In this document: positions 1,908 through 20,412 of the stretch, in pieces
How positions within the stretch are numbered: position 1 is the stretch's first letter
How the letters are laid out: the number at the start of each line of letters is the position of its first letter
Made by a program: the position numbers and the translations under genes
DNA from: Solimonas flava DSM 18980
GTDB lineage: Bacteria; Pseudomonadota; Gammaproteobacteria; Nevskiales; Nevskiaceae
Assembly (NCBI RefSeq): GCF_000426685.1
Contig: NZ_AUFV01000002.1
Coordinates: 124,001 to 188,000 of the forward strand
Direction of reading: 5' to 3'
Length of the DNA: 64,000 nt
Notes under the pieces: model-generated
What the model was told of the DNA's origin: nothing
Database searches by the model: none
What the model saw: the letters and a program-made list of their open reading frames with translations, nothing else

Positions 1908-3745
<1,838 letters not shown>

Positions 3746-14703: not shown

Positions 14704-14723
14704 TGGTTGCAATTTTGGTTGCA
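14704..14723. repeat. 20-bp end repeat, left copy (likely integrase arm site)
   Basis: TGGTTGCAATTTTGGTTGCA occurs here and again at 56374-56393, near the other end of the island. It is itself two TGGTTGCA octamers separated by ATTT. In the excised circle both copies would flank the joined attachment site, the layout expected for integrase arm-binding sites. Confidence 0.65.
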
Positions 14724-14760
14724 AGGACACTGTCCGGCATGGCCGGACGTTGGAGGCCAT

Positions 14761-16155
14761 GTGGCGATTCACAAGCGAAAGCGCAAAAGCGGCGCGCGTT
14801 ACACCGCCGTTATCCGAGTTGTAGGCCAGCCCACCGAGTCCCAAACCTTCGACAGCCTCAAGCAGGCTGAGCGATGGCATAACTCGCGCCTGGAGCAGAT
14901 CGCGAACGGCAGCAAGGTGCTGGAAAGCCGTGCCCGCACTGCGACGTTGAACGACATCCTGCCGCGATATGCGGAGCAGGTTGCCGCGCATCGCGGCAAG
15001 ACGGTTGCCTGCGGTGTTTCCGAATTGGCAGCGCTCGGACGCCTTTCTGAATCATTCCTGGGCGAAATGCGTGTCGTGGCGATTGATGCCAGCCATGTCG
15101 AAACCTGGCTGGACCAATTCCGAAAGATGGAGAAGCCGGGCGGTGGGCGCTACAAGGAATCCTCGATCAGGCGGAGTCTGGATACGTTCGCCGCCGTCCT
15201 GAACTTCGCCGCCACTGACTTGGGCCTTCACAGGTTCCAGAATCCGTGCCGGTTCATCTCCCCCTCTAAGCGTCCCAAGGGCGCGGACCCACGCGAGCGC
15301 AACCTACGTGAGGGCGAGTTCGAGGAGTTCGAGCGACAGCTGGCGCTCTTTCAGGGCGGATGCTTCGCGGACACCTATCGCTTTCTACTGTTCTCTGGGA
15401 TGCGCCGTACCGAAGCCTTCTTACTTCAAGAGTCATGGGTCAATTGGGAAGACTGCACGATCGCTTTTCCTATCACCAAGACCGGGGCTGAGACGCGAGC
15501 CCTCGCACCTCCGGCGATGGCGTTGCTTCGCCGACTGAAAGTGGGCGAAGACGGGAGGTACTTCAAGTTTCTTCCCGATCGGGTGACCAAGGTCAACGCC
15601 ATTTTGTCGCGACGCACTTCCATCATGATCGCGGCGCGCAGGCTCGACGGCGGGCGATTCGCTGGGGCGATCCAGCTGTTCCTGCTTCTGCCCCGGCTGA
15701 AGAACATCGAGGAACTCCTGACGCTGCGTGCCGACGCGACGGATTGGGGTGCCTGCGTCATCAAGTTCGACAATCCGAGGGGCACCACGCTTCGTAGAAG
15801 GCGAGTTTCGTACGAGGCACTTGAACTGGTGCGGATACTGACGCGGCCTGATCAGAAATCCCTTTTCGACTTCACTGCTGATGAACTGAAGGCCGCGATG
15901 GAGAAATGCCAATGGCATGCCCGCTCAATCGGCACCTTCTCACCTCATATCCTCCGTGCTGCCTTCACGACAGCACTACTTGAAGGCGGTGTGCCGCAGG
16001 CGGTGGTGGGGAAGTTCACCGGCCACCGCGACGCTCGGTCGATTCAGAGATATACCCGGGTCACCTCTCCCAAAGCGGCAAAGATGTTTGGCGCAATGGC
16101 GAAGAAAGGTCTGGACGCGCTGCTGGGCAAAGAAATGCAGACGGTCGTCAGCTAA
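14761..16155 (+). CDS. int: Tyrosine-recombinase integrase
   Basis: 464 residues from the GTG at 14761, chosen because GGAGG lies 4 bp upstream; a TTG at 14707 would run through the repeat. Catalytic residues are visible: Arg I in FSGMRRTEAF, the HxxR box PHILRAAFTT, GHRD and the nucleophile in QRYTRV. The distance between Arg I and the HxxR box is unusually long. The extra segment (LFLLLPRLKNIEELLTLRAD... to EALELVRIL) looks like a second, degenerate copy of the Arg I block. It sits beside the attachment site and should catalyse integration into the tRNA-Ala anticodon loop. Confidence 0.9.
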   Translation: MAIHKRKRKSGARYTAVIRVVGQPTESQTFDSLKQAERWHNSRLEQIANGSKVLESRARTATLNDILPRYAEQVAAHRGKTVACGVSELAALGRLSESFLGEMRVVAIDASHVETWLDQFRKMEKPGGGRYKESSIRRSLDTFAAVLNFAATDLGLHRFQNPCRFISPSKRPKGADPRERNLREGEFEEFERQLALFQGGCFADTYRFLLFSGMRRTEAFLLQESWVNWEDCTIAFPITKTGAETRALAPPAMALLRRLKVGEDGRYFKFLPDRVTKVNAILSRRTSIMIAARRLDGGRFAGAIQLFLLLPRLKNIEELLTLRADATDWGACVIKFDNPRGTTLRRRRVSYEALELVRILTRPDQKSLFDFTADELKAAMEKCQWHARSIGTFSPHILRAAFTTALLEGGVPQAVVGKFTGHRDARSIQRYTRVTSPKAAKMFGAMAKKGLDALLGKEMQTVVS

Positions 16156-16227
16156 TGAGCTATCTGGCTGGCGGTGTATGACGCTGCCAGCGATTGCATT
16201 GATCACGATTGATTGCACTAACGTTGA

Positions 16228-16275
16228 AAAGCGATACAGCCGATCTTGAGGTGGGCTGTATCGCTTTCAGTTTTT
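16228..16275 (+). terminator. Terminator after the integrase gene
   Basis: AAAGCGATACAGCC (16228-16241) pairs perfectly with GGCTGTATCGCTTT (16254-16267) and is followed by TTTTT. It can stop integrase transcripts and, in reverse, those from the opposite gene. Confidence 0.85.
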
Positions 16276-16321
16276 CTTTGCCATCAAGGAGGCGCCGCTA
16301 AGGGGCGCCGGCGGCGATCAA

Positions 16322-16912
16322 TCAGTTCTCGTCGATCCCAATAGCCGTTTCGTTTTCAGCAGTCTCGGCTGCATTGTCCCTGGCCCAGACGATCTGCTCG
16401 CGAAGAAGTGAGTACAACTCGCGCTCGGCAGCTGGCTCCTGATCAATGAGCGCCTCAAAGAGGATGCCACCGATATCGGCGAGTTCCTCACGAGTGGCCT
16501 CCATTTTTCGAGCAGACCAGTCGGCATCCACAAAAAACTGCTTGACCTGATCATAGACACGATCTTGAAGCATCGACGTTGCGACATCGACCTGTTCTTC
16601 ACTGAGGTTGAGCCAGCCATCTTCAGCATCAAAGAACGCACCCACCGGGTAGTCGAGTGGAAAACTGAGTGCGAGTGAGCAGCGCTGCGATCGCGAGCCA
16701 AGCAATTGCACCACGATTCGCGGAATTTCGTGCGCCAGCCCAATAGGCATCGCATCGTCGTAGCAAGAAAAGCTCTTCACAGGAATCAGTGCGAGTGCTC
16801 CGTCACGCATCATCATCGGCGCCATTAGTGGTGGAGCGTAAGGAAAGCTGTCTTGCGCCATGCGCAAAGCCAGAGTGGAGCGAATACTTGATGCGAGTGT
16901 TGCGATTTCCAT
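16322..16912 (-). CDS. Hypothetical protein
   Basis: 196 residues from the ATG at 16912, which has AAGGA 8 bp upstream; a longer frame to 17023 exists. No signal peptide, membrane segment or known domain is recognised. The C-terminal half is acidic and helical (about EEQVDVATSMLQDRV onward) and the chain ends in an acidic tail. The local DNA is much less GC-rich than the chromosome, consistent with recent acquisition. It is convergent with the integrase gene. Confidence 0.5.
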   Translation of the reverse strand: MEIATLASSIRSTLALRMAQDSFPYAPPLMAPMMMRDGALALIPVKSFSCYDDAMPIGLAHEIPRIVVQLLGSRSQRCSLALSFPLDYPVGAFFDAEDGWLNLSEEQVDVATSMLQDRVYDQVKQFFVDADWSARKMEATREELADIGGILFEALIDQEPAAERELYSLLREQIVWARDNAAETAENETAIGIDEN

Positions 16913-17023
16913 GGACATCATCCTTGAGAAATAGATCGGTAAGGGATTCGATTTTTCACTCAAGAGTGGCGATGAAAAGTCGAGGTCCATGGGTATCAAT
17001 ATCCATCTAACCATCGCGGTCAA

Positions 17024-17350
17024 GCTTGTTTTTGGTTAAAAGAGTCGAAAGGGAGGGGGTCAGGAAGTTGATTAAAAACCCCGTAAATTCCGACAAAATC
17101 CTCGGACTTTTCTAATTCGGGGCGCGTCAAACGAGGGGTGAGTCTGTAGCGACTCGTTGACAGGCGTGCGCGCTGGTTTTTCTAAGAAACGCGCTAGGCA
17201 GACAATGGTCTGGTTCCTAAATGTCGAATTTCGATGAACCGTGCTCTGTGCGTGACTGTGCCGTCGTACTTTGTGGATCGCGAGCCTTGATCAAGTTCGT
17301 GCCCGCGAGCAGTCCAAAATCCTTCGGCGTGTCCGAAGCGATGGATGCAG
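17024..17350. other. Gene-free gap
   Basis: No ribosome-site-supported open frame, tRNA or clear repeat was seen. It separates the hypothetical gene from the strong terminator hairpin that closes the next region. Confidence 0.4.
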
Positions 17351-17396
17351 AAAACCCCCTCCCGCCCATGCCGAAGCACGAGCGGGAGGGGTTTTC
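17351..17396 (-). terminator. Strong hairpin terminator, usable in both directions
   Basis: AAAACCCCCTCCCGC (17351-17365) pairs with GCGGGAGGGGTTTT with only one bulged C. Reading leftward the stem ends in TTTT, so it is well placed to end the candidate minus-strand RNA that lies to its right. Confidence 0.75.
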
Positions 17397-18418
17397 GAGA
17401 ACAACAACAGCTCCTTCACTGTCCTGATAATTGCATTCACTGACCTTCGATCATTCGGCCGTCAAGCCGAACAATCGTTGCAGCACCTTTCCAATGTCGC
17501 TCGTCCGCCCGTCAAGGCATGGAGCTAGCGACAGCCCGCCAAGGCCGTCGCCTGTACCGCTGACCCGTTTACACGGGGTACACGTCGTCGGAGGCGTCAG
17601 CCTCCCTGCGCTTGCGCGCAGTGGGGTCACTTCCCCGAGCGTTTCGTCGCCTGTGCCACCTGCGTTGCCCTTTCGGGGGCTGTCGTCCTTTCGGGACAAC
17701 AGCTCGGCCATTCGGCCGCGCTTCGGCACCCATCTCCCCACCCGGTACAACGCGCTGGTGCCTTCCAGCGCATCGGGGTCGGGGTTTCGGTAGTTAGACG
17801 TGGGCTCTGTTCTCTCTGATCAGTACGCTGTCTGCTCGGTCGTGGTTTGCGCCATCGCGCTCAGCCCTTGCGGGCCTTTCGTCGGTACGAAGCTCCGAAG
17901 CTGACTCGACTACTTCCATCACCACAATTCCTTCACTGCAGATTCGCATCCCCCTGCGGGGACTAGCAGCACTTGATCTACCCGGAAGACGTTGAGGATC
18001 AATACCTCTTCGCCCTATCACCATCCGCTCCACCCGTTACGGCTCGCAGACCTCAACATCGAGGTCCACGTCCGAGTCCGCGTCGTCTCTGCCTTACGGC
18101 ATGGCCACGCTGCATCGTTTCCGATGCAAAGGCTTCTGGAACCGGGCACCGACCGCGCATCCCTTTCGGGGTAGCGCAACCGGGGCGGGAGTTACACCCG
18201 CTTTGCCTACGCCCGCCACACTCGCCATTTCCTACGAGGGGCAGTGTCCTACCCGCACAACTTCGTTCTTCTCAGAACGTTGAGATAGATGAGCGGGACT
18301 ACTCCGACGAACCGTCGGGATTACTCCGCCACACCCCCTCAATGCACGCAGCAAGCGAGTTTCCCGGCACTGCGCGCTAACGACTTCCCCATTGGCGTGG
18401 GGTCCTGCTCGACGACGT

Positions 18419-18759
18419 GGTGTTGGCGCACCCCGATGCCTCCATGCCGGATGGGCTGGAAATCAGCGTCTGTACAGTGTGTGGACGTCGATTTCCCTTG
18501 AAGTTCGGGCTGCGTCGGCGTTGTCACCCTGTGATACCTCCGGATTCCGGAAGCATCGGGGTGCGCCAACACCTCGGCGCTAACCAGACAGTGTTCGGCG
18601 CCGGTACATCGCCTCTCCGGCGAGGCCTGCCGAATCGGCAATCGCGAACCACACACTGTACGGGCCGCTATTTCTCGCCCTCCTTGGATGCCATCCGCAG
18701 TCGCAAGGCGGTACGCCGACCCAGCATCGGCTGGGTCGGCGTACCGCCTCCGAACACTG
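18419..18759. repeat. Interlocked inverted repeats
   Basis: Three long-range inverted pairs overlap in order A-B-A'-C-B'-C'. A is 21 bp perfect (18419-18439 with 18553-18573), B is 13 bp (18472-18484 with 18649-18661), and C is 10 bp (18589-18598 with 18750-18759). A/B and B/C cross each other, so they cannot all form in one simple nested fold. They suggest a pseudoknotted RNA or alternative folds. Confidence 0.75.
18707..18748. repeat. Perfect 19-bp hairpin
   Basis: GGCGGTACGCCGACCCAGC (18707-18725), a 4-nt loop, and its exact complement (18730-18748). It is the strongest simple hairpin in the region, about 90 bp upstream of the next gene and near the presumed 5' end of the candidate RNA. 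There is no T tract, so it is not an obvious terminator. Confidence 0.85.
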
Positions 18760-18834
18760 TGGTGAATAGGAGCTTCTATTAGTTCGTCGCTGGAACAGAG
18801 AAGCGAATTCACGCAATCAAGGAGTTAGACCGCG

Positions 18835-19788
18835 ATGAAAGCGATCGCCACCGATGCCGATTTTCTGATCCCGCAGCACCGCGCTGCCGCCATGTCGTAT
18901 CTGCAGACCCTGGCTGCCACCGGCTATCACTATTGGAATACCGGCTCCGTTCACTATGAGAAGGCCGCCGGGTTTCTGGCCAAGATGAGGGCGTTGTATC
19001 CGATCGACCTGAGCCCCGGCCAGCGGGCCGTCGCTCAGGCCAAGGGTCGCGCCAATGCCTATCTCGTGATGTTTCCGGATGGATCAAAAACCGGCTACAT
19101 CCAGTGGTTTCTCGTGGCCACGCGCGGGCGGCATGCCGTCGATCCACTGACCGGCGAACTGCTCACCGATCAGCCGTTCGCTGACCTGATCCACCAGCGA
19201 GAGAAGATGAAGGATGGCCATCGCATCCCGCTGACCTGGCTGGGCCATTACCGCCTCGTGCAACACCAGCCGGTCCGCGATCCGCGCAAGAAGAAGAGCC
19301 AGAAGCGTGTCTGGACTTGGCGCCTGACCGTCGAAACCTATCGCCAATGGCAGCTTCGACTGGAGCAGGCCGCGAGAATCGGCAACACCGCGCTACGCAA
19401 GGAGATCGAGCCGCTGTTGCGCAGCCCGATGTTCTCCGGCGTCCGCGACGACATCGCCCAACTCGCCGCGCTGGCCGAGGCCGCATTCCGCAAGCAGCAC
19501 AAGTCCGCGGCGTATGTCTCGCCGCTGCCAGCCATGCTGCCGTACATGCCCCGGGTCACCGTGTACCGCGACGGAACACTGTTCTCGCTGGTGGAACAAC
19601 TCCGGCAGCAAGACGCCGACGACAAGGCCCGAGCGATGGCAGCGTCGAGGGCACTTCTGGCCGGAGCTGAACCCCGAATGCAATTCACTCAATCGATGTT
19701 TATGGAGATATCCAATGGCTCTTCTGAAGAAGAAGGTGGTTCTGGTGCCGTACAAGGTCACGCTGCAGGTCGATCAGGCTCTGCATGA
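18835..19788 (+). CDS. Hypothetical protein of mobile-element type
   Basis: 317 residues starting at an ATG with AAGGAG upstream. No domain is recognised with confidence. It has a conserved-looking core (ANAYLVMFPDGSKTGYIQWFLVATRG... AVDPLTGELL), a basic stretch (RDPRKKKSQKRVW) and an acidic, Gly-rich tail. No HUH, Walker or RT motif is visible. It is the first and longest gene of a run of small unknown genes, and lies directly beside the candidate structured RNA, divergent from it. A nucleic-acid-linked role is possible but only inferred from the basic character and context. Confidence 0.6.
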   Translation: MKAIATDADFLIPQHRAAAMSYLQTLAATGYHYWNTGSVHYEKAAGFLAKMRALYPIDLSPGQRAVAQAKGRANAYLVMFPDGSKTGYIQWFLVATRGRHAVDPLTGELLTDQPFADLIHQREKMKDGHRIPLTWLGHYRLVQHQPVRDPRKKKSQKRVWTWRLTVETYRQWQLRLEQAARIGNTALRKEIEPLLRSPMFSGVRDDIAQLAALAEAAFRKQHKSAAYVSPLPAMLPYMPRVTVYRDGTLFSLVEQLRQQDADDKARAMAASRALLAGAEPRMQFTQSMFMEISNGSSEEEGGSGAVQGHAAGRSGSA

Positions 19789-19924
19789 CCGCATGCTCAA
19801 GCTCGAAAAGCTCGCGGCCCAGTACGGTTACGAATTTGATGTGAGCGCTGGACTCGTCGATTCGTTGGTTATGCAGGTGGCCCGTGCCGAGAACCTGTTG
19901 CGCGACAACGGAGCGTCGGCTTAG
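19715..19924 (+). CDS. Small hypothetical protein
   Basis: 69 residues. GGAGA lies 6 bp before the ATG, and the gene overlaps the end of the previous one by 74 bp in another frame. The sequence is a basic start (MALLKKKVVLVPYKV) followed by amphipathic helices (DQALHDRMLKLEKLAAQYGYEF), which could dimerise or bind DNA. No family is recognised. Confidence 0.6.
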   Translation: MALLKKKVVLVPYKVTLQVDQALHDRMLKLEKLAAQYGYEFDVSAGLVDSLVMQVARAENLLRDNGASA

Positions 19925-19965: not shown

Positions 19966-20283
19966 ATGAACCAGTTCAACGCCGATTTCCCCAATCCGTA
20001 TGCCTTCGATCCGGGCGAAGAGAAGCCTGTCGGCGGCTTCCGCGAAGTGAAGCGCCGCAACGGCGCCGTGTCATATCGCGCGCACTTCACGTACAAGAAG
20101 ACGCGCTATTCAGTGACCTTCCGCACGGACCGCGAAGCCAAGAATTTTCTGGAGTGGGCCGCGCATTTCACCCACTGGGAGGTCCCGTACAAGAAGCGCC
20201 TGAAGCAGTGGGTGGATGACTTTCGCGACGAGTCGGGTTGCCCCGATCTTGAAGGCTGGTATTTCGGTACACAGCCTGCTTGA
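19966..20283 (+). CDS. Small hypothetical protein
   Basis: 105 residues, soluble, rich in aromatic and basic residues. The centre (VKRRNGAVSYRAHFTYKKTRYSVTFRTDREAKNFLEWAAHF) reads as two or three beta strands plus a helix, like the N-terminal AP2/DNA-arm domain of integrases. This resemblance is by eye only. It is third in the small-gene run with short gaps, likely co-transcribed. Confidence 0.6.
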   Translation: MNQFNADFPNPYAFDPGEEKPVGGFREVKRRNGAVSYRAHFTYKKTRYSVTFRTDREAKNFLEWAAHFTHWEVPYKKRLKQWVDDFRDESGCPDLEGWYFGTQPA

Positions 20284-20412
20284 TGGCGACGAGCAGCCCC
20301 TGCCTGGGCTTCCGGGCAGGGGCTTGCGCTCGCTTCAATGGCAACTATTCCCACGGCTGCGAATCTGAGCATGACGCAATCACGCTTGGTCTTCGGAGCA
20401 AAGGGGGATGCC

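Follow-up and report, generated by a model that had tools for sequence, protein, structure and literature searches.

A divergent candidate circularly permuted group II ribozyme beside an acpG homologue on a genomic island of Solimonas flava

The question raised by positions 17351-18790 of the window (the whole 64,000-nt stretch of DNA that was analysed) is what a hairpin-rich region without a supported gene may encode. The open reading frames listed at 17023-18835, of up to 157 aa, overlap one another on both strands and are putative genes at most. The region lies on an island of about 42 kb as judged by G+C (14551-57404), which adjoins tRNA-Ala (14551) and carries a tyrosine integrase, two P-type metal ATPases, RND efflux genes, MerR regulators and an AAA (DnaB-like) protein; a scan of 30 ORFs gave no relaxase or T4SS family. 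A preliminary description had proposed that the minus strand of a mobile island encodes a large structured RNA, possibly a new orphan of the GOLLD, ROOL, OLE or HEARO kind. The first part of this proposal is supported by strand-specific GNRA loops, both in the region and across 31 loci, and we refer to the predicted minus-strand RNA at 17351-18790 as the window RNA. The second part is not supported, as none of these families was matched in Rfam and as the layout and the AcpG neighbour are those of a circularly permuted (CP) group II RNA. With a probability of roughly 0.8, we consider that the minus strand of 17351-18790 encodes a CP group II ribozyme, divergent from its partner gene acpG and belonging to a lineage outside the described consensus. 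The computed basis is the family-wide strand-specific structure, the shape of domains 5 and 6 (D5 and D6), the site motifs in two sequences and the AcpG neighbour.

We counted GNRA loops closed by at least three Watson-Crick pairs on both strands of 17351-18790. There were 10 on the minus strand and 0 on the plus strand, and none of 1000 dinucleotide shuffles reached 10 (mean 1.22, maximum 7). The preliminary description, which had reported at least seven such loops and hairpins in close succession, therefore gave too low a count of the loops and is borne out on the hairpins by these loops and by the fold z-scores. Over 17200-18900, 200-nt fold windows had mostly negative minus-strand z-scores, the lowest being -7.2 (18401-18600), with unremarkable values at 17801-18000 (+0.4), 17901-18100 (-1.7) and 18301-18500 (-1.3); plus-strand values were also low in places (to -5.7). 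Flanking fold windows ranged mostly from +1.3 to -2, with exceptions at 16101-16400 and 20201-20400, and in sliding folds the structure was mostly concentrated, with interruptions, in about 17200-18900. Upstream of the acpG homologue at 31 loci, we counted 76 GNRA loops on the minus strand versus 8 on the plus strand, in spans of 1.5 kb or less that include three loci of 114-754 nt only and some near-duplicates; the downstream control gave 8 versus 2. Two finer claims held in part. The stem at 17679-17703 does have a G-U pair on the minus strand only, but its loop is drawn as CGAAA, with five bases, and is no clean GNRA. The hairpin of the leftward terminator that was said to close the region is present, but taken by itself it is weak evidence, because shuffles yield on average 2.0 terminator-like sites per region, as many as the 2 observed. 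A search of 17000-19000 for sigma-70-like promoters found none.

At curated thresholds, the Rfam search that the preliminary description had suggested gave no match in the region. GOLLD, ROOL, OLE and HEARO, which the window RNA resembles in being large and structured, and some of which also occur in mobile elements, were absent. The sole low-E match was to RF00029 (group II intron D5-D6), at 18279-18379 on the minus strand with 36.2 bits, below the curated cut-off of 40. The window site was absent from the results of a genome-wide RF00029 search, and the same model gave no match at E 5 to L013, the relative described below.

According to the parts of the class description used here (Roth et al. 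2021, PMC8637638), CP group II RNAs ("T-large") begin with D5-D6, have internal and reversed splice sites (GGGCG and NU), P1 and P2 hairpins and a P2-D2 pseudoknot, contain a linker of 15-86 nt in an RNA of about 900 nt, and give branched and circular products in vitro. AcpG, a protein of about 260 aa, is associated with them on Thermus pTT8 and elsewhere, frequently but not obligatorily (same parts of PMC8637638). The predicted domain map of the window RNA can be seen in Table 1. As far as those parts describe the class, the window RNA is like it in the order P1-P2-D5-D6-linker-5' site-EBS1, in the bulged A of D6, in a linker stem-loop whose 20 nt lie inside the published range, in P hairpin loops complementary to 3' hairpin loops, in the divergent AcpG gene alongside and in its location on a mobile element. 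Measured against the same parts, it differs in its 5' site (GUGCG, not GGGCG) and 3' site (AC, not NU), in a D5 with a longer lower stem, GAAA loop and CGC triad, and in a length of about 1.1-1.4 kb versus about 900 nt, and it falls below the class model. With canonical group II introns (RF00029) it shares a 34-nt D5, GUGYG and AY sites and a branch A eighth from the 3' end; unlike in those introns, its domains are permuted, its splice sites are internal and reversed, and no intron-encoded protein was found. A CGC triad is also found in IIC introns, the Oceanobacillus iheyensis intron among them. Among the matches listed by an open-access literature search, judged at the level of those listings, there was no GUGCG-type lineage and no other work on the window RNA.

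Table 1 Features of the predicted window RNA and its surroundings. Positions are those of the window.
Feature	Position	Strand	Basis or remark
Tyrosine integrase	14707-16155		On the island
Predicted CP group II-type RNA, P1 to terminator	17356-18432	minus	GNRA asymmetry, fold z-scores, domain map
Leftward intrinsic terminator	17356-17391	minus	16 pairs, then GTTTTC
3' hairpin, loop with UUGACG	17457-17468	minus	
3' element with UUGACG	17507-17518	minus	
D2-like hairpin	17528-17552	minus	Loop UUGGCG, complementary to P1/P2 loops
EBS1-like hairpin	17883-17897	minus	AGCUUCGU (17887-17894) pairs with IBS1 over 8 bp, one of them G-U
Predicted 5' splice site GUGCG (GUGYG type)	18254-18258	minus	Conserved in L013 as GUGCGGGUGGGACAG
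Linker between splice sites, 20 nt	18259-18278	minus	GAGA-loop hairpin; predicted excised RNA circle
IBS1	within 18259-18278	minus	Last 8 nt of linker
Predicted 3' splice site ..CAAC	after 18279	minus	D6 fold
D6	18280-18342	minus	Predicted branch-point A bulged at 18286; D5-D6 segment folds of window and L013
D5, 34 nt	18344-18377	minus	RF00029 match at 18279-18379 and fold
P2 hairpin	18387-18402	minus	CGCCAA within loop; fold; 2 of 4 pairs changed on both sides in L013
P1 hairpin	18419-18432	minus	Loop CGCCAA; fold; identical in L013
acpG homologue ORF317, divergent from the RNA	18835-19788	plus	hhalign to pTT8 protein
69-aa ORF overlapping the end of acpG	19715-19924	plus	Similar-looking small ORFs after acpG in L013 and L030 (by eye)

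Transcription may begin upstream of 18432, towards 18790. The D5 has a 9-bp lower stem, a 2-nt bulge and an upper arm of two pairs, a C-C mismatch, two pairs and a GAAA loop; its triad position reads CGC with a G-U pair, and five pairs lead to the UU bulge, the fifth being C-A in L013. The CGC triad is not unique to this lineage, since L098 (G744), which holds a class-type RNA (GGGCG), also reads CGC by eye. From D1-D4, the elements placed are the D2-like hairpin and the EBS1-like loop, the latter being the sole sign of D1. An IBS1 partner of the EBS1 kind is also present in 75 of 2000 shuffles, and the pairing taken alone could have arisen by chance; the homologous site in L013 forms 5 bp with its own IBS1, and a second such site exists in L013. 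The motif UUGRCG occurs three times in the last 400 nt of both the window RNA and the L013 RNA (1/500 and 0/500 shuffles, respectively). Many window-RNA features were sought after the CP group II class was suspected. Among 33 class members, a CCAA hairpin loop lies within 110 nt before D5 in 27, versus 8.8 expected from shuffles. A downstream TTGG loop is found in 30 of the 33, a count that is uninformative because 26.9 are expected. A 20-bp palindrome (18705-18749) in the interval from acpG to P1 could be regulatory, as could an inverted repeat (18412-18441/18551-18580) that has P1 inside one arm.

At full length, the DNA of the window RNA was found only in the host and in one congener (G039, 100% identical). 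In G028, of the host's family, the partial DNA matches are those of L013, and two others (G023 and G068) were weak; two distinct sequences of the lineage are known, those of the window and L013. When D5-D6 segments were folded apart, the two agreed in D5 shape, and each had one bulged A in D6; in the fold of a longer stretch, the window keeps its D5-D6 fold and the D6 of L013 pairs otherwise. We compared 51 window pairs in P1, P2, D5, D6 and the linker with L013: 28 were the same, 4 had one-side changes, 11 had both-side changes and 8 were broken, some of the breaks being due to misalignment of the linker hairpin. Within D5 there were three both-side changes, one one-side change and one broken pair. 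Both sequences have GUGCG at the 5' site and AC at the 3' site, and the linker has 20 nt in the window versus 28 nt in L013. Plasmid DNA searches gave no further members of the lineage, and a plasmid search with the L013 protein gave 9 records, all with less than 60% identity. In the genome sample of the host's taxonomic class, DNA searches gave short weak matches only, in G162, G296 and G273, and lineage motifs were absent from these three and from G023 and G068. In G273, the locus L018 shows an AcpG-like match of 56 residues (E 1e-4), and the search there with the class model R1 was negative. In viral contigs, a 16-base P1 pattern gave 33 stretches, about the chance number by a rough estimate, none of them with both D5 and the 5' site. 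The congener G039 carries a separate group II intron D5-D6 (L099) with 41.9 bits, above the Rfam cut-off.

The class model R1 was built from a D5-D6 alignment of 33 class members, excluding the window and L013, in which 19 of 23 pairs show both-side changes. It finds the pTT8 RNA, divergent from its AcpG gene, at 30.3 bits. At the window site it gave 10.2 bits (E 0.025 over the 2 kb of 16900-18900), the best value there, with the next place at 7.0; over the whole 64-kb window the site was unreported, and a chance place at 3536-3612 scored 12.7 bits (E 0.57). Apart from the window, that search covered 18 loci, of which R1 missed L013, L065, L066, L068 and L077. The class D1 blocks gave no collinear match in the window, and we therefore make no claim of the similarity that the EBS1 region shows to the class by eye. 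The window was also missed by a nucleotide profile built from 36 class RNAs, which is uninformative because Thermus members scored poorly as well (L039 with E 0.13, L096 with E 4.9).

The neighbouring gene product, ORF317, was aligned to the Thermus pTT8 AcpG by hhalign with 97.5% probability and E 6.8e-12. The pTT8 protein (TTHC007) was taken as record TTH_RS11295, of 259 aa, matched by plasmid, place and size, the old tag being absent. In the tree, AcpG from the window groups with that from L013 in one clade (100/99), which falls within the family but on a long branch of unsure placement. No Pfam, PHROG or NCBIfam family was found for the window ORF317, and 15 of its relatives gave two weak stray matches to Pfam; its AlphaFold model (pLDDT 85) had no match in the PDB or BFVD at E 0.001.

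Homologues of ORF317/AcpG were found in 10 of 85 genomes of the host's order, in 8 of 369 of its class and in 2 of 398 of its phylum (the host included in the latter two), as well as in 13 plasmid records; neither AcpG nor the class motif was found in phages and viral contigs. Many relatives' RNAs have in common a 20-nt motif that contains GGGCG. Most of the relatives found fit the class of Roth et al., as judged by the GGGCG motif, the D5-D6 alignment and the pTT8 match by R1. In genome contigs, the class motif occurs in 28 stretches; 23 of them, or 24 with L094 taken as a circle, have acpG within 2.3 kb in the orientation expected, an association that is not wholly independent because four of the 28 (L070, L073, L081 and L091) were already known loci. 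As for the exceptions, the stretches of L068 and L080 lack the gene, that of L087 is too short to judge, and L077 has no gene at the expected place. Within the host's order, class RNA is present in 9 genomes under stricter filters; seven genomes have both AcpG and class RNA (in G062 on different contigs), and G044 and G017 have class RNA without AcpG, the latter as a weak 49-nt match. The AcpG genomes without class RNA are the host (G000), G039 and G028, and all three carry window-lineage RNA. All 10 AcpG genomes of the order therefore have one RNA or the other, which suggests that the two RNA types can replace each other next to AcpG; the plasmids L065 and L066 from elsewhere, with AcpG but no class RNA found, speak against this.

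We prefer the CP group II reading because the layout and the AcpG neighbour match the class of Roth et al., and because of the RF00029 D5-D6 match (E 4.5e-5), the D5/D6 shape shared with L013 and the UUGRCG trio. The window RNA lies outside the described class by consensus, while its layout, P1/P2 loops and partner gene suggest that it works in the manner of a class member. If so, the P1/P2 loops (CGCCAA) would kiss the 3' hairpin loops (UUGGCG/UUGACG), so that D5-D6, from the 5' part of the RNA, would come to lie on D1-D4, from its 3' part. The A bulged out of D6 (18286) would attack the 5' splice site before GUGCG (18258), and the freed linker end, held by IBS1-EBS1 pairing, would attack the 3' splice site after 18279. 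The predicted products are a 20-nt RNA circle (18259-18278) and a T-shaped branched RNA; for the window RNA, we infer both chemistry and products from Roth et al. 2021. The likeliest function, which we put forward tentatively and with rather less than even confidence, is a branched RNA-AcpG particle that may serve the maintenance or spread of the mobile element. More broadly, we infer a ribozyme-protein unit serving mobile elements. The window RNA thus reads as a divergent lineage of a known kind, and it leaves the purpose of CP group II RNAs unexplained. These are among the few large natural ribozymes, and a lineage whose splice sites and D5 are canonical would both tie them closer to ordinary group II introns and test which of their features are essential.

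The window lineage could also have arisen from a canonical group II intron by a separate natural permutation, or could represent an early form with canonical splice sites still in place, which we regard as possible although rather unlikely. If true, the permuted layout beside acpG would have been selected more than once, or an ancestral state would have been preserved. The stricter version, in which a canonical (IIC-like) group II intron was circularly permuted in nature a second time, independently, and came to lie beside acpG, seems improbable to us. Although D5 and the two splice sites resemble canonical group II introns more than the class, and the class R1 model and D1 blocks fail to match, the window RNA shares traits described by Roth et al. 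as unique to the permuted class (P1/P2 hairpins, linker stem-loop and AcpG partner), its P1/P2 loops hold a CCAA complementary to the 3' loops, and the AcpG proteins of the window and L013 lie inside the family, though on the unsure long branch. Decay into a non-catalytic CP group II RNA, kept as an RNA scaffold or by drift, would account for the C-C mismatch in the upper arm of D5 in both sequences. However, most changes between the window and L013 keep pairing in D5 and at the base of D6, and L013 retains the D5 bulge, the GAAA loop, the branch A and the 5' site, so that we assign decay a small probability.

A large structured RNA that has no relation to group II introns and resembles them by chance would be compatible with the sub-threshold Rfam score, with the weak R1 score that a chance place exceeds and with D1-D4 being without demonstrated homology. 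We nevertheless find it very improbable, given that D5, D6, both splice sites and an EBS1-like loop stand in the expected order and adjoin an AcpG gene. The idea that the region is a DNA element (a replication or transfer origin) and not an RNA was prompted by plasmid neighbours, and the palindromes, the several relatives on plasmids and a coupling-protein (T4CP) gene near the CP RNA in at least 7 of 48 loci, in short stretches, speak for it. It receives almost no credence from us, as GNRA loops confined largely to one strand in the 31 loci would have no reason in a DNA element; an oriT or replication origin was dropped for this asymmetry and for coupling-protein genes near only those 7 loci.

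The T4CP loci are L041, L042, L061, L062, L063, L086 and L093, with six of the genes on the RNA's strand; five plasmids among them are typed non-mobilizable, and three of the seven loci are near-identical Paraburkholderia plasmids. On Acetobacteraceae plasmids (L065 and L066), AcpG is present and no class RNA was found by R1 or motif; this AcpG is longer (388 aa), and the loci may carry another diverged RNA. Conversely, L080 and G044 hold class CP RNA with no AcpG gene found, in an 8-kb stretch for L080 and in the genome at E 0.001 for G044. On the Pandoraea plasmid pPO70-4 (L063, 3039-4555), D5-D6 appears to be split, with two partial R1 matches flanking an IS256 transposase gene. In L054 (41-2864), two CRISPR-repeat runs about 1.4 kb apart lie upstream of acpG beside the CP RNA.
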